The notes beneath the pieces were generated by a model that was given only the letters and a program-made list of their open reading frames with translations, ran no database searches and was not told the origin of the DNA. A stretch of 20,843 bases of DNA, from positions 1-20,843 of the IMG/VR virus record IMGVR_UViG_3300046318_000265. One strand, 5' to 3'. Every line of letters starts with the position of its first letter. Positions within the stretch are counted from its first letter, which is position 1. This document shows positions 6,503-16,062 of this stretch, piece after piece. The position numbers and the translations under genes were made by a program. Source of the DNA: a virus.

Positions 6503-7126
6503 TTAAAAATCTGGATATGTTTTTGTTAATCCGTATTTATTTCTTGCCGCAGTTTCCATTCTAACATTGATATCGGTTAGAGAACCAATATTATTAGAGT
6601 TTTCACCTTTACCTCTTTCATCACCATTAGATAACGCATTTGCGTGTACACTTGAGTACCCGTTATCTTTATTATAAAGATTTCTACCTGTGTTGTCTAT
6701 TCTATTAAGTATATCGTCAGAACTACCTAATTCATTTTTTCCTTTAGAATCTCCGTCGGAAATTGCATTAGGGTGGTTAGAACCATATCCTTTACCGTCT
6801 GTATATGTATTTCTTCCTAATAATTCTTTTCTATTTTGAATGTCGATTGAATTACCTAACTCACTTTTTCCTTTTTCGTCACCATCGGAAATTGCGTTAG
6901 GGTGATTAACACCATAACCATTGTCGGAACTATACGTGTTCTTTACTAAATTACCAACACGATTTTGAATGTCAATCGAACTACCTATTTCGTTTTTTCC
7001 CTTCTCGTCTCCGTCAGAATTTGCGTTCTTGTGGTTTGAACTATATCCACCATTATCGGTGTATGCGTTTTTAGTTATTAAATCTTTTCTAAATTTTTCA
7101 GATAACGCTTCTAATTGTGTTGCCAT
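6503..7126 (-). CDS. tandem 43-residue repeat protein, probable virion component (207 aa)
   Basis: After an 18-residue helical N-terminus, the protein consists of four tandem repeats plus a fragment: residues 19-61, 62-104, 105-147, 148-194 and 195-207. The consensus is [KR]N-x-Y-x4-GY-x3-H-x-NA-x-S-x-GD-x-KGK-x-E-x-G-x-S-x-DI-x-NR. The first three repeats are exactly 43 residues; the fourth has a 4-residue insertion in its second half. The repeats are polar and rich in Asn, Gly, Asp and Lys, with no hydrophobic core, so each may be an extended segment that binds one copy of a symmetric partner such as a capsid or tail lattice. That role is inference from the repetition and from the structural neighbours. 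The start is 1 nt after the preceding stop codon. Confidence 0.8.
   Translation of the reverse strand: MATQLEALSEKFRKDLITKNAYTDNGGYSSNHKNANSDGDEKGKNEIGSSIDIQNRVGNLVKNTYSSDNGYGVNHPNAISDGDEKGKSELGNSIDIQNRKELLGRNTYTDGKGYGSNHPNAISDGDSKGKNELGSSDDILNRIDNTGRNLYNKDNGYSSVHANALSNGDERGKGENSNNIGSLTDINVRMETAARNKYGLTKTYPDF
6506..7072 (-). repeat. tandem 129-bp coding repeats (4 copies plus a partial)
   Basis: On the minus strand the copies run 7072-6944, 6943-6815, 6814-6686, 6685-6545 (12 nt longer) and a partial 6544-6506. They code for the 43-residue units of the surrounding gene. The protein sequence is more conserved than the DNA; third positions differ between copies, which points to old duplication under selection and not a fresh expansion. 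Confidence 0.85.
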
Positions 7127-8397: not shown

Positions 8398-9864
8398 ATG
8401 AAAGATATTTATAAACGTATGAATAGTCAAAATATTTTAAAATTTTATGGGACAAAGTTAGATGTCAGATTGGATAATTCGGAGTATTACGACTACGAAA
8501 TGGCCAAATTAGATGACGATTATAACAAAGATGTCTTAGATTTATCAACCCCTATAACATATACGGGTCTGACGATTAATACTAATTTAACCAATTTTGA
8601 CTGTATAAAGTCAACAATTACACTTGCTGAAGACAATTTAAGTGATTTAATTTCGGGATATACGTACTCTGGTTTGTCATTTACTTTAAACTATGAAAAT
8701 TTTGTAAATCATTTTGGTGAAAATTATATTAATACGATTTTAGATTCTAATAGATTTAAATTCACTCTATTATCTGGAGAAACTCATTATTTTAAGATAA
8801 TATCTTACAATTCTCCTATAACCGTAAATTTACCACCTTTAGATGTTTACACTGAAGATGAGATTATATCTGGATTTACTTCAAATGTTTATAGTTGTAG
8901 AAAAAACATAGTTAATCCGTTAGATTGTTGTCCACAGTCACCTAAATTAGGGGTAAAACCTTGGTCCTTTAAATTTAACGAAGGTTTAGGCACCGATAAC
9001 TGCACACCAACACTAAAAAGAAGAACAGAAAAAGGTTGGACTTTGGATTTTATTTTTAATAGAAATAATCTTCCTTGGGGTGCGGGTAGTACGTTTTATT
9101 ATATAGGTGTGAGGGGGGAAAATGACCCATACAACTATTCTGACAACAATTTATCTTTCCAATTTACTCCAGACAGAAGGATAAAATGGGTTTCACACCA
9201 TTATTCGGGTTATTGTGGTACAAATCAATATGAGGAAGATTTTTACGTTACAAGTGGTCAAACACCTCAATTATGTACTATAGATCCCGAAAAGGATTTT
9301 AATGTTACAATTGTTTTTGACCGATATAAAAGATATACCGATTGTAATTTAGAAAATGATGGAGGTTGGAACGATATGATTGGGTATAGAATAAATCCAT
9401 ATCAAGATACCGAAGTTAGTGCAGTTACATCAACACAATTGGCGGTGTGGGACGAAAATGAGGAACTATCTAAAAAATGGGCAGATGAACGACAAAGAAG
9501 ACTCGGAACATTAAAAATATATATAAATGGTAGACCGATATATAAGTTGGAGAATTGGGAGGAGGTTATACCATCTGAAAGAGGAGTTCAACCGTTTATA
9601 CAATCTTGGGGTGGAGGAACAGGATTAATGGGTAATATTCACAGTGGTGTCTGTTGCTTCAATATAAAATCAATAAAATATTACGAAGAACCGTTAGATT
9701 TTATTCACGTTAGACATAATTTCATTACACGTCAAAATCAATATGATTTTTCCATTTGTGGTGTTACTTGTGAAGACGATTTAATTGGTTTGGTTAGTAA
9801 TGGTTTATTAACTGAAGATTCCATACAAATAATAACAGAAAACGATAATATCGTATTATATTAA
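8398..9864 (+). CDS. LamG/concanavalin-like phage structural protein (tail or surface), 488 aa
   Basis: This is a large beta-rich protein with 12 cysteines, unusual for a cytoplasmic phage protein. Residues about 185-435 follow a concanavalin/LamG-like jelly-roll pattern: WSFKFNEGLG, GWTLDFIFNRN (213-223), FNVTIVFDRY (301-310), GTLKIYINGRPIYKLENWEE (370-389), then SWGGGTGLMGNI and a closing strand FNIKSIKYYEEPL. The YINGRPIY...EE-V-I-P...SWGGGTGL arrangement is one I associate with structural proteins of marine T4-like phages. A sugar-binding or virion-surface role is likely. ATG 8398 is the longest start; the in-frame ATG at 8419 (residue 8) also fits, and the promoter-like octamer at 8381 lies very close to 8398. 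It leads the plus-strand tail block. Confidence 0.82.
   Translation: MKDIYKRMNSQNILKFYGTKLDVRLDNSEYYDYEMAKLDDDYNKDVLDLSTPITYTGLTINTNLTNFDCIKSTITLAEDNLSDLISGYTYSGLSFTLNYENFVNHFGENYINTILDSNRFKFTLLSGETHYFKIISYNSPITVNLPPLDVYTEDEIISGFTSNVYSCRKNIVNPLDCCPQSPKLGVKPWSFKFNEGLGTDNCTPTLKRRTEKGWTLDFIFNRNNLPWGAGSTFYYIGVRGENDPYNYSDNNLSFQFTPDRRIKWVSHHYSGYCGTNQYEEDFYVTSGQTPQLCTIDPEKDFNVTIVFDRYKRYTDCNLENDGGWNDMIGYRINPYQDTEVSAVTSTQLAVWDENEELSKKWADERQRRLGTLKIYINGRPIYKLENWEEVIPSERGVQPFIQSWGGGTGLMGNIHSGVCCFNIKSIKYYEEPLDFIHVRHNFITRQNQYDFSICGVTCEDDLIGLVSNGLLTEDSIQIITENDNIVLY
8406..8413 (-). promoter_or_regulatory. second TATAAATA octamer, minus strand, inside the start of the plus gene
   Basis: The minus strand reads TATAAATA here. 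By T4 spacing it would start a leftward transcript near 8400 and give a leader of about 36 nt for the gene at 8364-7615. On the plus strand the same bases form TATTTATA, 6 nt upstream of the alternative ATG at 8419. Together with 8381-8388 it forms a face-to-face pair within 33 nt. Confidence 0.35.
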
Positions 9865-9877: not shown

Positions 9878-10903
9878 ATGGCAGGGAAAAAAATATCACA
9901 ACTAACGGGCTCACTATCTCCAAGTCTATCGGGAATTGTTCCAATAGTTTTATCTGGGACAACATATAGCACGACTTTAAATTCATTAAGACAAGTTTTA
10001 GTGGATAGTGGTTCTCACTATTTCACTGGTAGTCAAAAAATAAGTGGTTCCTTATTAGTTGGTACGGGTTCTTTTCATACGGACAATCCGGAAGTTTTAC
10101 ACGTACAAAACAGTAATAGTTATAATGTTGCACATTTTGAGGGAAATCACGGAAATTACATTCAATTTAACTTAAAAAACACAAATTCAGGAAGTAACGC
10201 CAGTGCTGATATTGTAGTAACCGCCGACAATGGTAACGAAGGTAATCACTTTATTGATTTAGGAATTAATTCATCCACATACCAAGGTGGGTTTGTTGGT
10301 AGGGAAAATGATGCATATCTTTTAAACGTTGGTAAAGATTTATATGTCGGAACTGTTGGAGGTACTAATCATCCAGCTAAGTTACATTTATTTGCAGAAA
10401 ACAATTGGGAAAATCCTCAAGTAACCGTACACACTGGTAGTCAAGTAACATTTAACACACCGTCATTTACCGATGGATATATGTACGAATTTAGTGGTAG
10501 TGCAAAAATGCAAAATGATTTATCTGTTAACGGTGAACTAAGCATTGGTGGTGTAAATGAAAAAATTGCATTAGAAATTAGTGGAGGAACCTCAACATAT
10601 GAATTTGATTATAATGAGGCTGCGGTGTTCTATTTAATGGATTCAGTATCTAATAACGTTTATAATGTGTCAAACATACCTACTGAAAACAGAAAGGCAA
10701 TATCACTTACCTTCATTATAAAACAAGGATTAACACCATATATTGCGTCTTCATATAAAATAAATAATGAAAACGTTTCTGTTAGTTGGGCAAACAATGA
10801 ACAACCTACAGGAAATTCAAATAAAACTGACGTAATAGGGTTAACCGCTTTTAGAATTGGTTCATCTTGGAATGTCTTAGGTACTTTTACAACATTTGGT
10901 TAA
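9878..10903 (+). CDS. tail fibre-like structural protein (341 aa)
   Basis: The N-terminus (MAGKKISQLTGSLSPSLSGI, continuing to about residue 41) has the short, Ser/Gly-rich pattern of fibre anchor domains (K-I-S-Q-L ... I-P-I-V ... T-T-Y ... L). The middle consists of repeated short beta segments with G-S-x-x-I-S-G-S and hydrophobic alternation, as in trimeric fibre shafts. The C-terminal 100 residues form a globular beta domain: an AVFYLMDSVSNNVYN strand, then NRKAISLTFIIKQG, then SVSWANNEQPTGN, and finally TAFRIGSSWNVLGTF. This last unit resembles C-terminal domains of fibre or structural proteins in marine T4-like phages. It lies 13 nt after the LamG-like gene and 6 nt before the mosaic adhesin, so the three are probably co-transcribed. 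Confidence 0.8.
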   Translation: MAGKKISQLTGSLSPSLSGIVPIVLSGTTYSTTLNSLRQVLVDSGSHYFTGSQKISGSLLVGTGSFHTDNPEVLHVQNSNSYNVAHFEGNHGNYIQFNLKNTNSGSNASADIVVTADNGNEGNHFIDLGINSSTYQGGFVGRENDAYLLNVGKDLYVGTVGGTNHPAKLHLFAENNWENPQVTVHTGSQVTFNTPSFTDGYMYEFSGSAKMQNDLSVNGELSIGGVNEKIALEISGGTSTYEFDYNEAAVFYLMDSVSNNVYNVSNIPTENRKAISLTFIIKQGLTPYIASSYKINNENVSVSWANNEQPTGNSNKTDVIGLTAFRIGSSWNVLGTFTTFG

Positions 10904-10909
10904 AAATAT

Positions 10910-13900
10910 ATGATAAGTAAAGTATCATCACGAGTTGGTGCAACAAGAATTTTTGTAGTTAAACCTAATGGTTCGGTTAACACACCGACACCAACGCCCA
11001 CATTTACCCCTACACCAACACCTATACCAACTAGTACCCCTACACCAACACCTACGGCAACTAGTACACCTACACCAACACCGACATTTACACCAACACC
11101 TACGGCAACTAGTACACCTATACCAACTAGTACACCAACCCCAACATTATTTATACCAGAAAACGACTTTACATACGTTATTATTCCAAATAACGATTTA
11201 ACATATACATTAATACCGAATAACGATTTAGTGTATTTGCTAATACCAAACGACGATTTAACATACACGTTAATTCCTACAAATGATTTAACACACACAT
11301 TAATACCGAATAACGACTTATTATATACGTTAGTTCCAGATGGTGACTTAAATTATGTTTTGTTACCTGACAACGATTTGAACCCTGTTGAAATTCCAAT
11401 TAATGATATTAACTACACATTAATTCCAAACACAGATTTAACATATACATTAATACCAAATAACGATATAGAATCTATTGTACTAAAACCAGGCGCATCG
11501 TTCTATGGTTATGTAATATTCGGAGAACAACCTGATATTTGTTATGGTTGTGACGGATGTGAGACACTTTATGTAGTGGGTGATGGACCAACATTCTGTG
11601 AATCAAACGTTTTTGTTACAAACGGAGATGGTTTTGGTTTTAGTGGTTATGGTTATATTAGTTACGGCGGTTATGTTAAATCGGTTAATCTAAATAACAC
11701 TAACATTGCAACGTATAGAACTGATTGTGAGGTTTGTCCTGAACTACCAATAGATGAAAACGGATACAGATACTATAAGTGGGAAATAACCGACACTAAA
11801 ACAACCGATTATTATACACAATCATCAGAATTTGTGTTTACAATTAACGGTACAAATCAAGTTATGTCAGGCGTTACAATGAGTAACCCAGGGGCAATGA
11901 ATTTAATTGATGACGTGGAAGGTGCAAATAAAATTATTGATGGTGACCTAAACACAAAATGGTTAGATAGTATTTCTTCACAATATGGTAGTAAAGCAAC
12001 ATTAATATTTGATTTTGGTGAACAAAAAATATTCACAGGTTATAAATGGGCAACTGGAAATGATTATGAGGAAAGAGACCCTAAAAATTGGAAAGTATTT
12101 GGTAGTAACGATAATGTGAATTATACAACATTAAGTACTGTTAGTGGATATACGTCGACATCTGATAGAAATACATTTAATATCGAAATGGATTTCGATT
12201 ATGCGTTTACACCACCGACCCCAACTCCCACACCTACTTCAACACCGAGTCCAACACCAACTAGTACTCCGACACCAACACCTACGAGTACTCCAACTCC
12301 AACACAGTCACCGTTAGATTTTACATTTACCGCCGAATGTGACCCACAAGGTACCAATATAACCAATTTCTCAGGTGGAAGTGGTCAATGGGAATATACC
12401 GCAAATGTATTTGGAAGTGAGAATGAGGCATTAAACGCGGGACTATGGTATACCGTTGCAAATTCTTGGAATAATGTCGGAGTACAGACAAATTCAGATG
12501 GGACGTATTGGGCGGCTGTGAGAGATTTAAATAACCCAAGTAATATAATTGCAAAGTCCGTAACTATTAGTTGTGTAACACCAACTCCAACTCCAACACC
12601 GACAAGTACTCCAACGCCAACACCAACACCTGAAATGGTAACATTGAATATTGACCTTGCATATGGTATTGATAGTTTTTCTTTTGGTGGGGTCACATAC
12701 ACTTCTGACACAACAATTAATGTTATTAGAAATCAAACATATACTGCAATTTGTGGTAGTTCATTTTTCTCCACATTTACAGGTACTGGACTTGCACCAT
12801 TAGTACAAAATGCATCTAACATAGCGGTAACTGTTACAGGTAGTACCGCAACTTTAAATGTCGTTAGTACTTTACCTGAACCAACACCAACACCAACACC
12901 AACTAACACTCCTACACCAACTCCGACATCTACAAGTACACCAACACCAACACCAACTTTACCTCCATTAAATTTCTCAATTTCTGGCACTTGTAATAAT
13001 AACGGTTCGATTAGATTAAGTGATTTTGTTGGTTCGGCGTCCAATAATTACCAATATAGTGCGGGAACACATACTACTGAAAATAGTGCACTTAATGCAT
13101 CTTCGTGGGGACCTATAATCGGAGGAAATATTGGTAGTGTGATTATAGGTTCAAGTGGAACATATTGGGTTGCGGTAAGAGAAACCGAAAACCCTTCAAA
13201 TATTATTGCAAAGTCGGCAACAATTAATTGTGTTGCGGGACTTGGTTTAGTTTTACATTATGACCCATCTAATACAACCTCATACTCAGGTACCGGCACA
13301 ACAATTAACGATTTGACCGGTCAGGGTAGAGTTGGAACGATGTCAAATATAACACACACATCACCATACTTTACATTCAACGGAACCTCTTCACAAATTT
13401 CAGTTGCCGATAGTATAGGGTTAGAACCACAAAGTGGTGATTGGACAGTGGAAGTTTGGGTGAATCAGACAGTGGCAGGAAATGATGTTGTACTTGGTAA
13501 ATTTAACACCGGTGGACTTTCATCAAATGTAGGATATAGTATTAGAACTACGGGTTCGTCATTTTACGCACAATATGGTTCAGGGTCAGGTTCGGGATCA
13601 ACATTATTCTCCAATAGTACAACACATAATGGGACAGTAAATACTTGGTATCAATTAGTTTATGTGTTTACCAATATTGCAGCAAACACATTTGAAACAT
13701 TTGTTAATGGTACAAGTATAGGTAGTGTGAATCATAGTTTGGCAAGTATATTAAACACCACCACGAATTTATACATAGGTTCATATAATAATGGTGAATA
13801 TGCACAGTGGTTTGACGGTAAAATCGGTATAGTTAGAATATATGGTAAAGCATTGACCGCCGCGGAGGTTTTAGGTAACTACAATACGGACAAATCAAAA

Positions 13901-13912
13901 TATGGATTATAA
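10910..13912 (+). CDS. mosaic adhesin / tail fibre with Pro-Thr linkers, decapeptide solenoid, discoidin-like and LamG-like domains (1000 aa)
   Basis: The order is: a short N-terminus (1-24, RVGATRIFVVKPNG); Pro-Thr linker 1 (25-79); eleven decapeptide repeats (81-190, consensus LIPNNDLTYT); a Cys/Gly/Tyr-rich segment (191-276, with CYGCDGC at 211-217); an F5/8-type-C (discoidin-like) domain (about 288-432, with IIDGDLNTKWLD and DFGEQKIFTGYKWATGND); linker 2 (434-468); a first copy of a duplicated module (469-555); linker 3 (557-574); a beta domain (575-655); linker 4 (656-685); a second module copy (686-774); and a C-terminal LamG-like lectin domain (about 777-1000, ending GKIGIVRIYGKALTAAEVLG). 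Discoidin and LamG domains commonly bind carbohydrates, so this is a strong receptor-binding candidate. It has no signal peptide, as expected for a virion protein. Its start is 6 nt after the fibre gene. Confidence 0.88.
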   Translation: MISKVSSRVGATRIFVVKPNGSVNTPTPTPTFTPTPTPIPTSTPTPTPTATSTPTPTPTFTPTPTATSTPIPTSTPTPTLFIPENDFTYVIIPNNDLTYTLIPNNDLVYLLIPNDDLTYTLIPTNDLTHTLIPNNDLLYTLVPDGDLNYVLLPDNDLNPVEIPINDINYTLIPNTDLTYTLIPNNDIESIVLKPGASFYGYVIFGEQPDICYGCDGCETLYVVGDGPTFCESNVFVTNGDGFGFSGYGYISYGGYVKSVNLNNTNIATYRTDCEVCPELPIDENGYRYYKWEITDTKTTDYYTQSSEFVFTINGTNQVMSGVTMSNPGAMNLIDDVEGANKIIDGDLNTKWLDSISSQYGSKATLIFDFGEQKIFTGYKWATGNDYEERDPKNWKVFGSNDNVNYTTLSTVSGYTSTSDRNTFNIEMDFDYAFTPPTPTPTPTSTPSPTPTSTPTPTPTSTPTPTQSPLDFTFTAECDPQGTNITNFSGGSGQWEYTANVFGSENEALNAGLWYTVANSWNNVGVQTNSDGTYWAAVRDLNNPSNIIAKSVTISCVTPTPTPTPTSTPTPTPTPEMVTLNIDLAYGIDSFSFGGVTYTSDTTINVIRNQTYTAICGSSFFSTFTGTGLAPLVQNASNIAVTVTGSTATLNVVSTLPEPTPTPTPTNTPTPTPTSTSTPTPTPTLPPLNFSISGTCNNNGSIRLSDFVGSASNNYQYSAGTHTTENSALNASSWGPIIGGNIGSVIIGSSGTYWVAVRETENPSNIIAKSATINCVAGLGLVLHYDPSNTTSYSGTGTTINDLTGQGRVGTMSNITHTSPYFTFNGTSSQISVADSIGLEPQSGDWTVEVWVNQTVAGNDVVLGKFNTGGLSSNVGYSIRTTGSSFYAQYGSGSGSGSTLFSNSTTHNGTVNTWYQLVYVFTNIAANTFETFVNGTSIGSVNHSLASILNTTTNLYIGSYNNGEYAQWFDGKIGIVRIYGKALTAAEVLGNYNTDKSKYGL
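10982..11146 (+). repeat. Pro-Thr linker 1, low-complexity coding repeat
   Basis: Residues 25-79 of the adhesin are almost only Pro, Thr and Ser/Ala (PTPTPT with STP and ATST interruptions). At the DNA level, ACACCN units alternate with CAACTAGTAC, seen four times here (near 11028, 11058, 11106 and 11127). Shorter relatives lie at 12209-12313, 12578-12631 and 12875-12964. On the opposite strand these stretches read as meaningless Gly-Val frames. Confidence 0.9.
11150..11479 (+). repeat. eleven in-frame 30-bp repeats (decapeptide LIPNNDLTYT)
   Basis: Eleven consecutive units of exactly ten codons code for residues 81-190 with no insertion or deletion. The Pro at position 3 and Asp at position 6 are kept in all eleven copies; positions 1-2 are hydrophobic and position 9 is mostly Tyr. 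Third codon positions vary, so the protein is conserved more than the DNA. Confidence 0.93.
12314..13231 (+). repeat. duplicated adhesin module (two copies separated by linkers and a beta domain)
   Basis: Copy 1 is 12314-12574 (residues 469-555) and copy 2 is 12965-13231 (residues 686-774). Both start LDF/LNF-x-x-x-x-x-C, share EN-x-ALNA-x-x-W in the middle and GTYW-x-AVR-x-x-x-NPSNIIAKS-x-TI near the end, and finish with Cys. The two Cys residues per copy may pair. Each follows a Pro-Thr linker. Confidence 0.85.
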
Positions 13913-13980: not shown

Positions 13981-16062
13981 ATGGCAATTGGAGCAAGAAT
14001 AACAAGTGAAAACTTAAGTGGTAAGACGGCAACGGTTACGTTTATACCATATACAGGAACAACATCGGGAACCACGGTAAACCTTGGGACCAAGACAATT
14101 CCTTTTAATAATATCAACACTCACCCATATGGTGTTTATAATCTTTACTTTGCTGAATATGATTATACATACACGTTAACCGTAGATGAACCCGTAATCG
14201 AATCACAATTATTCGTTCATTCGAATAGAATGACGACTTCAAGTAACTATGGTGCAGCAACGTTAAACTTTAACGATTTTACTGCTGAAGTCATTGATTT
14301 AGGGGTTGATTCAACTTATTGGTATAACAGCGACATTTATCCATTAACCGATTCAGGTTATGGTTACTTTTTCGGAGGTAATGACAACGGTAATGAAAAA
14401 CTTATAATATTCACAGACGCTTCGAACGCAATTGTTGGCCAGTATAGTGGGACAACAAATAGTTATGACTTTAATAGTTTAGAAGGTAAATGGATAACAT
14501 ATGAAGATGCCGATAACGGTATATTAAAATATTTTAACGGAACAGATTTATATACCTATACTTGGGACCCTGAAACACATTATATTGATATTGAAAACGA
14601 TTATGACTCAGTAATGGGTGATGGTTCTTTTATTGTTAGAAAATATGAAATTGGACAATGGGGTTGTAATGGCCCAGGTGCTTCATATATTATGAAACCC
14701 GATGGTACTGTTATTCCATTCAAAACTTGGAACGACTGTATAAATATTGACCATATGATAACTCCATTTGTTGATTTCATTGCAGTTGAAACTAGAGACC
14801 AAAACACTAATCAATATACAAGTTTACAAATTTATAACACTGACGGTGATATTTTAGAAACAATATCACTTACGGGGGATACATATTCTAGTGTAGACGC
14901 AACTTTTCTTGGAACAGATAAAATGTGTGCAGTTTATTACAATTGGAACAACACCGCAGTAGATTATAAAATAATCCATTATAATGGTACAACAGGAACT
15001 TTAACCGAAACAAGTCACGTTAGAGGTTCTAGTTATGATGGTATTAACTTATCTGGTGACGAAAGTTATTGGCCAAATGATAACGTCGATGGTAGTGTAG
15101 TTATTTCATTTTATAACGAAGTTGGTTATGTTAATTTTGCTCCGGTATGTGATTATTTCGATTATGTTTATATGCTGAATAATCAAACTGGGTTTACAAC
15201 TTATTCTGTAACAAATGATGCAAATAGAGCAATCTCACCATATGGTAACCTTGGAAATACCTATAAGACGTGGTGTGAAACAACAGGTAATACATTAGGT
15301 ATATTAACAATAACCACTAGTGGTGTGACAATTGCAGATTTCAATGAACCGGTTTCAGGTGTAACCGATACCAATTATTACGGAATGGGAGATAGACTTG
15401 TAACATCTTACAGTACAAACAGTGGAATAGATATGTTTTTTAATTTAATTGGTAACGACGGAACAATTCTTGATAGTTTAGACCCGATATTATATTCAAA
15501 TTATGCTTACAATATGTCTAGTAACGGCGATGTACTTTATTTACGTTATACCGATTCGTCCACCACTAATCACGCATATTATATTTATAGTGGAAGTACT
15601 GGTTTTACATCAACAACACATTATAATCAAACTAGTACACCAAATGATTATTTCACATCTACATTCTTAGACCCAAGTAATATGGTATTATGGTCTGAAG
15701 GTGGTTCAAATTGTAGAGTTTTAACTAATAGTGGAATTAGTTCAGAATTTAGTATTCCAGAATATTATAATTACAGTCTATCAGTTGGGAAAGATAAGTT
15801 TATGTTAGTATATAACGAATCAGATGGTGGAATTTATACAATAAATTTATATGATTTTACCGGAACATTATTAAACACTCACACAACACAATATACGACT
15901 TGGGATGATATATATTCGGCAAAAGATAGATTTGTGGTTATGTTCCAGGGTCAAGGAACAAAAGAAATTTTCTTAGTTAGTGATGAAATAATAACATCTG
16001 TTACAATGGATGATTATGATGGTGAAAGAATGATAAACGATTTCATTTGGTGGGATGATTAA
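13981..16062 (+). CDS. beta-propeller-like phage surface / tail protein (693 aa)
   Basis: Residues 1-70 form a distinct N-terminal beta domain (MAIGARITSENLSG, then VTFIPYTG, and YDYTYTLTV), probably the virion anchor. From about residue 125 to 672 the sequence repeats a blade-like pattern roughly every 40-50 residues: a hydrophobic strand ending in Tyr/Phe, a polar loop, a second strand, then [DN]-x-x-G-x-x-L/I. Clear units start near 265 (DFIAVETRD to TDGDILET), 314 (KMCAVYYNW to GTTGTLTET), 471 (DRLVTSYST to NDGTILDS), 516 (GDVLYLRYTD) and 605 (DKFMLVYNE to DFTGTLLNT). This suggests one or two beta-propellers, a fold used for receptor or glycan binding. I know no specific family name. It is the last large gene of the adhesin block. 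Confidence 0.78.
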   Translation: MAIGARITSENLSGKTATVTFIPYTGTTSGTTVNLGTKTIPFNNINTHPYGVYNLYFAEYDYTYTLTVDEPVIESQLFVHSNRMTTSSNYGAATLNFNDFTAEVIDLGVDSTYWYNSDIYPLTDSGYGYFFGGNDNGNEKLIIFTDASNAIVGQYSGTTNSYDFNSLEGKWITYEDADNGILKYFNGTDLYTYTWDPETHYIDIENDYDSVMGDGSFIVRKYEIGQWGCNGPGASYIMKPDGTVIPFKTWNDCINIDHMITPFVDFIAVETRDQNTNQYTSLQIYNTDGDILETISLTGDTYSSVDATFLGTDKMCAVYYNWNNTAVDYKIIHYNGTTGTLTETSHVRGSSYDGINLSGDESYWPNDNVDGSVVISFYNEVGYVNFAPVCDYFDYVYMLNNQTGFTTYSVTNDANRAISPYGNLGNTYKTWCETTGNTLGILTITTSGVTIADFNEPVSGVTDTNYYGMGDRLVTSYSTNSGIDMFFNLIGNDGTILDSLDPILYSNYAYNMSSNGDVLYLRYTDSSTTNHAYYIYSGSTGFTSTTHYNQTSTPNDYFTSTFLDPSNMVLWSEGGSNCRVLTNSGISSEFSIPEYYNYSLSVGKDKFMLVYNESDGGIYTINLYDFTGTLLNTHTTQYTTWDDIYSAKDRFVVMFQGQGTKEIFLVSDEIITSVTMDDYDGERMINDFIWWDD

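Follow-up and report, generated by a model that had tools for sequence, protein, structure and literature searches.

Genes and Modules at the Locus

The window, which is the whole 20.8-kb virus record analysed here, encodes PhoH, a dUTPase and a family B DNA polymerase. Its neck-type protein shows a distant likeness, at 23–24% identity, to proteins of Flavobacterium and Microcystis phages, and a match to a glycosyltransferase is weak (E 5e-4, under the curated cut-off). On the minus strand, positions 6503–7126 encode a 207-aa protein with imperfect repeats of about 40 residues that carry HPNAxSDGDEKGK-like stretches. A decapeptide array is present in a large adhesin-type protein, and the features that concern it are listed below, where L-numbered loci denote related arrays fetched from IMG/VR.

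8398–9864, plus strand: 488-aa protein, some relatives of which are fused to, or end in, decapeptide arrays
10910–13912, plus strand: ORF of a 1000-aa mosaic adhesin-type protein carrying the array, with predicted F5/8 type C and LamG_3 domains (Pfam)
10910–10978, plus strand: N-terminal segment of the 1000-aa protein, MISKVSSRVGATRIFVVKPNGSV; a 28-aa query is 75% identical in L004, L005, L018, L027 and L032
10979–11149, plus strand: first Thr/Pro linker
11150–11479, plus strand: eleven decapeptide repeats, consensus LIPNNDLTYT, in-frame, residues 81–190 of the 1000-aa ORF
11480–11740, plus strand: small, Cys-containing companion module (VLKPGASFYGY...CEVCP)
11921–12187, plus strand: F5/8 type C (discoidin-like) domain (PF00754, E 3.6e-9)
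12308–12583, plus strand: PLDFTF module, 100% identical in L007 over 92 aa
12980–13237, plus strand: PPLNFS module, 98.8% identical in L007 over 86 aa
13238–13909, plus strand: C-terminal LamG/concanavalin-like domain (PF13385, E 1.2e-17), 97.8% identical in L007 over 224 aa

The N-terminal segment of the 1000-aa protein is perhaps its virion-attachment end. Positions 13981–16062 encode a 693-aa protein whose first ~70 residues are also the N-terminus of otherwise different ORFs in relatives (e.g. L069, L066, L079, L102 and L041), and this shared stretch is perhaps a common attachment domain. An antisense ORF of 132 aa on the minus strand (10900–11298), which covers the linker and part of the array, is probably a by-product of the repetitive composition.

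The Decapeptide Array

The preliminary description had claimed eleven exact ten-residue repeats with invariant Pro3 and Asp6, and the array bears this out: both residues are present in 11/11 copies, position 2 is Ile/Val/Leu and position 7 is Leu/Ile/Phe in 11/11, and Tyr9 occurs in 8/11. Identity at lag 10 is 60/100, compared with a mean of 11.2 (SD 3.1, maximum 23) in 10,000 shuffles. At the DNA level, Tandem Repeats Finder detected two imperfect 30-bp arrays, at 11173–11332 and 11392–11469. The mean identity between copies is 56% for amino acids and 62% for nucleotides and, by codon position 1/2/3, 67/76/44%; because of this codon-position pattern, the copies look old and constrained at the protein level, and not like a recent expansion.

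Related Arrays and Their Copy Number

Searches of IMG/VR found 18 loci with the array, 22 with the array alignment and 10 with a two-copy relative, while a degenerate DNA pattern of two copies found 71 stretches, all of which are recognisable arrays except those of L054 and L059, an identical chance-looking match in an unrelated 141-residue ORF that was removed before arrays were counted. Related arrays of 2–11 copies are present on 68 contigs besides the window, or 69 with it. Among the distinct runs, there are 11 copies in four (the window, L003, L004 and L005), 10 in two (L006 and L007), 8 in nine, 7 in one, 5 in one, 4 in eight, 3 in fourteen and 2 in seven; these 46 runs include fragments, as L012, L069 and L062 each contribute two runs from one ORF, and L019 contributes two separate arrays. 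Copy number, for which a comparison between related phages had been proposed, therefore differs among them, and both odd (3, 5, 7, 11) and even (2, 4, 8, 10) numbers occur.

The differences are of whole units, with few irregular copies. In an alignment of 14 arrays, the one in the window and those of 13 relatives, every gap spans ten residues or a multiple of ten, except that L012 lacks one residue more. One nine-residue copy each is found in L012 and L069, and Val replaces Pro in one copy of L017. The claim that the repeat has no indels thus holds for the window, in all 11 copies, and does not extend to all of its relatives.

The position of the arrays within their ORFs also varies. Two-copy units stand alone between Thr-Pro linkers in L019 (twice, one of them being NDFTYTLIPNNDLYYEIIE), L050 and L120, and arrays of 2–4 copies lie at the very end of the ORF in L066, L079, L096, L102 and L112. 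In many loci, 3–4 copies start at about residue 616–652 of their ORF, and the preceding part of these ORFs is 26–44% identical, over parts, to the 488-aa protein of the window. A strand-turn-like motif, LLQENGFYILQENG, immediately precedes the array in L107 and L113. The 162-aa ORF on the minus strand of L062 shows a higher-order repeat, about 23 residues long, made by turns of a two-copy decapeptide unit and a spacer. A second strand-turn-like repeat, CDITYNIVPFDTT, of 13 residues with Cys, occurs in two to three copies at the C-terminus, both in L028 and at the end of the array ORF of L005, after the companion module.

Module Exchange

Modules were compared one by one across 29 fetched loci, picked to represent different arrays. 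The window array is 91% identical to that of L003, 90% to that of L004 and 86% to that of L005. Compared with the window, L005 has 87% identity over 343 aa in one of the two genes upstream and 81% in the other, but 60% in the companion module and 50% in the following gene. L007 shows the reverse, with C-terminal modules at 98–100%, the following gene at 87% and the array at 56%, and the companion module was not found there; L006 has the array at 76%, the PLDFTF module at 95% and the following gene at 84%. Because L005 is close upstream and in the array, L007 is close in the C-terminal modules and L006 lies between them, the 1000-aa protein is, by sequence comparison, a mosaic in which at least one boundary of exchange falls between the array and the PLDFTF module. 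With lectin-type domains (PF00754 and PF13385), Thr-Pro linkers that join them and module-wise identities to L005, L006 and L007, it belongs to the mosaic Thr-Pro-linked adhesins, as a putative binding protein.

The companion module comes next after the array in 8 of the 29 relatives compared, where contig ends truncate some of the loci; elsewhere a Thr/Pro linker or another domain takes its place. The N-terminal partners vary likewise, being a short MISKxSSRVGATRIFVV end, the 488-aa protein family or other ends. Relatives of the 488-aa protein are fused to arrays in L007, L008, L010, L011 and L016, and in L069 and L079 their C-terminal end consists of decapeptides. The C-terminal tail of the 488-aa protein of the window itself reads GLLTEDSIQIITENDNIVLY / LLTEDSIQIITENDNIVLY, a form similar to that in L005 and L017; since this tail is replaced by decapeptides in L069 and L079, strand-turn tails seem interchangeable at the C-terminal end of this family.

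Database and Literature Matches

When the window array and its relatives (14 arrays) were scanned alone, no match better than E 0.0016 was found in Pfam, PHROGs or NCBIfam, which agrees with the earlier remark that the repeat was not recognised as a named family. The best matches were Pfam YcxB (E 0.0016; 8/14 arrays), TssR_M (E 0.0023; 5/14), PHROG 24507 (E 0.0026; 5/14) and NF011297 (E 0.0061; 7/14). None of them was taken as membership, and the window array lies under the printed curated cut-offs of the best Pfam and NCBIfam matches. The whole protein matches PHROG 15511 at E 8e-14 over residues 18–108, that is, the Thr-Pro linker and about 28 array residues; this was read as a linker match because the family is missing from those listed for the arrays alone. 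No solved structure matched the array significantly.

In 50,697 phage records, the array alone matched six records, all at E 0.04 or worse, and all were rejected. A tail fibre of Pelagibacter phage Eistla (tblastn; whole protein E 2e-3, array alone E 0.04) was set aside, as a judgement, because the match lies on the strand opposite that of the annotated gene next to it and looks like another repeat translated in antisense, and matches of the array to Pelagibacter phage HTVC109P (E 2) and four Staphylococcus phages (E 2–8) are of chance level. The same records gave no credible match for the array, the 488-aa protein of the window or a related protein of L051. Among bacteria and archaea, represented by one genome each of 84,980 species, 20 peptide-pattern matches were found and none was confirmed as an array, and a DNA pattern covering two copies and a further two residues had zero matches. 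As none was confirmed in these species and the phage-record matches were rejected, the module appears, as far as the searches reach, to belong to uncultivated phages. The literature searched, with most subscription journals outside its scope, gave nothing relevant on decapeptide or 10-residue repeats in phages or solenoids, nor the string IPNNDL.

Residue Pattern, Periodicity and Structure Prediction

Among 171 distinct decapeptides, Leu/Ile/Val/Phe/Met occur at position 7 in 165, at position 1 in 129, at position 10 in 74 and at position 8 in 24, and position 2 is hydrophobic in 163. Tyr occupies position 8 in 22, position 4 is most commonly Asn, Asp, Ser or Glu, Asn/Gly/Asp occur at position 5 in 160, and Gly is present in at most 16 at any position. 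The family-wide high counts at positions 1, 2, 3, 6, 7 and 9 arise partly by construction, since the array finder required Pro, Asp or Asn, and residue sets at positions 7 and 9, and the two-copy DNA scan required Pro, Asp, Tyr and T-centred codons; the position counts of the window itself are free of this finder bias.

The RTX repeat is a nonapeptide of the period GGxGxDxUx, while the pentapeptide repeat has a five-residue period A(D/N)LXX. In 16 arrays of at least seven copies, identity is 680/1270 at lag 10 and 581/1110 at lag 20, compared with 88/1350 at lag 5, 116/1286 at lag 9 and 66/1190 at lag 15, and in these arrays neither a period of 5 or 9 nor a super-period of 20 residues is seen. 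The RTX signature fails on lag 9 against lag 10 and on the low glycine content, and the pentapeptide-repeat signature fails on lags 5 and 15, its matches (3du1 and NF052603) being non-significant.

Two single-chain AlphaFold2 jobs were run. The first, on the array and the companion module with an alignment of 7 rows (the window and 6 of the 18 loci then known), gave a mean pLDDT of 40.5, with ten-residue blocks of 24–35 in the array and mostly 53–67 in the companion module. The second, on the array alone with 35 rows covering 37/46 runs, gave a mean of 33.3 and blocks of 27–47. Neither monomer model gave a confident fold or a confident coil for the array, and in both of them low-confidence strands run mainly from Y9 to P3 of some copies and break over N4–T8. 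A confident prediction of disorder was not obtained either, the low pLDDT going with a shallow alignment; low monomer pLDDT of this kind cannot tell disorder from folding on oligomerisation. Covariation between neighbouring copies (mean APC-corrected, ~46 effective pairs) was 0.35 on the same-position diagonal and -0.11 and 0.17 on antidiagonals 14 and 15, and favours neither meander registers nor same-position stacking.

A Possible Strand-Turn Meander

The sequence comparisons show the array to be an exchangeable module whose copy number differs in whole units. For its fold we infer an antiparallel meander of amphipathic strands, probably in a trimer, which would stiffen the fibre as a spacer or clamp the three chains; this reading is tentatively preferred, at somewhat below an even chance. 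Each decapeptide would form about one beta strand and one tight turn, the strand spanning roughly D6-L7-T8-Y9-T10-L1'-I2' and the turn P3-N4-N5. Successive strands would run antiparallel and produce a meander with L7, Y9 and L1 on one face and T8 and T10 on the other, and a three-residue turn would make L1:L7, Y9:Y9 and T8:T10 cross-strand neighbours. Three chains would most likely pack their Leu/Tyr faces together, as do the antiparallel sheets of T4 gp34 P3–P5, and the array would then form a rigid stalk, or a clamp on the trimer, flanked by flexible Thr-Pro linkers, with the copy number (2–11) setting its length.

The alternation of strand sides is supported by the lower counts of hydrophobic residues at positions 8 (24/171) and 10 (74/171) than at positions 7 and 1, while Pro3, Asn/Asp/Ser/Glu at position 4 and Asn/Gly/Asp at position 5 fit the residue preferences known for a type I + G1-bulge turn. 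The lone two-copy units of L019, L050 and L120, as well as the two-copy unit and spacer of L062, suit a minimal unit that is a hairpin. Also in favour of the model are the module exchange, the occurrence of runs with odd as well as even copy numbers, the identity between copies of 76% at codon position 2 against 44% at position 3, and the low-confidence strands that both AlphaFold2 models place mainly from Y9 to P3. An amphipathic meander in a fibre also has a precedent, as PMC5537660 describes a five-stranded antiparallel sheet per chain in T4 gp34 P3–P5, three of which form a triangular, hydrophobic core. Several observations speak against the meander: AlphaFold2 produced no confident one and its low-confidence strand limits differ from those proposed, Ile2 (hydrophobic in 163/171) and Asp6 would lie on an otherwise polar face, Tyr is frequent at position 8, and covariation gives the meander registers no advantage over same-position stacking. 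The more specific proposal of an undescribed fibre fold, in which the decapeptide, as strand plus turn, builds a trimeric antiparallel prism of free length that phages tune by whole decapeptides and move as a block between adhesins, is possible and more doubtful.

The preliminary description had proposed a beta-solenoid or roll in which each repeat forms a short coil. The alternating pattern suits its beta strands, but one coil per repeat is not supported, given the lack of a confident AlphaFold2 fold, the lone two-copy units, the absence of a 20-residue super-period and the failure of the RTX and pentapeptide signatures. RTX rolls have two nonapeptides per coil and the pentapeptide-repeat fold has four pentapeptides per coil. 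A solenoid or roll with a coil of about 20 residues from every two decapeptides, and with Asn/Asp ladders as possible cation sites, is rather unlikely, although the strict period without indels in the window, the invariant Asp and an NDLTY stretch resembling pentapeptide and RTX units are in its favour. Non-significant matches point the same way (3du1, E 0.13 and 0.72; NF052603, 1/14 arrays, E 0.21; two Staphylococcus phage genes annotated as pentapeptide repeat, E 8), and the same-position covariation diagonal is not below the meander antidiagonals. These are set against the absence of a period of 5 or 9, the low glycine content at every position and the two-copy arrays that stand alone; a super-period is also missing, though a roll need not show one. 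AlphaFold2 is reported in PMC11795689 to give confident solenoids for 32/78 random perfect repeats of 5–30 residues, and in view of this tendency the absence of any confident coil argues modestly against a solenoid, an argument weakened by the imperfection of the repeats here. A cation ladder along the Asp residues found no support.

It is unlikely that the array is a disordered or locally structured multivalent ligand, in which a PxxDLxY linear motif would be repeated for avidity to a host or virion partner. Such a ligand would agree with the low AlphaFold2 pLDDT, the place between Thr-Pro linkers and the variable copy number, but four of the ten positions are rich in Leu/Ile/Tyr, alternate and are under protein-level constraint, and the spacing is kept, with whole-unit copy differences except where L012 and L069 have irregular copies. 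Arrays of 2–4 copies at ORF ends, together with the other strand-like tail that ends the 488-aa protein of the window, might instead suggest strand donation, by which short arrays would complete the sheets of a baseplate or fibre partner protein, hence their C-terminal placement; this is improbable, as it leaves the 8–11-copy arrays in mid-protein between linkers unexplained.

If the meander is true, the array would encode a rigid beta fibre in a very simple natural way, with one decapeptide per strand, and the natural variants of 2–11 copies would allow length to be compared with stability. The array also offers a signature by which adhesins can be searched for in a set of uncultivated phages.

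Comparison with Known Systems

Among trimeric phage fibres, antiparallel beta-prism domains are known from T4 gp34 (P3–P5) and, as triangular domains, from the P22 and Det7 tailspikes. Like these prisms, the array belongs to a fibre-type phage protein, and its proposed antiparallel strands would have one hydrophobic face. The gp34 domains, as presented in PMC5537660, have five strands per chain and loop insertions, whereas the array consists of 2–11 near-identical decapeptides, whose strand order and trimeric state we infer.

Like the RTX beta-roll, the array is a short tandem repeat in which a hydrophobic residue closely follows an invariant Asp, but its period is 10 instead of 9 and it has no glycine pattern. 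Pfam HemolysinCabind (PF00353), the family of the RTX nonapeptide beta-roll, is absent from the 13 families that the scan of the 14 arrays listed at E values up to 10, a range in which the HMMER filters drop most matches above ~0.1. The pentapeptide-repeat fold shares an NDLxx-like stretch in each repeat, while the array lacks the five-residue period and has non-significant matches only. As a whole, the window protein is of the kind of mosaic phage adhesins, with F5/8C and LamG domains, small modules and Thr-Pro linkers, to which it adds a genuine, unnamed decapeptide module.
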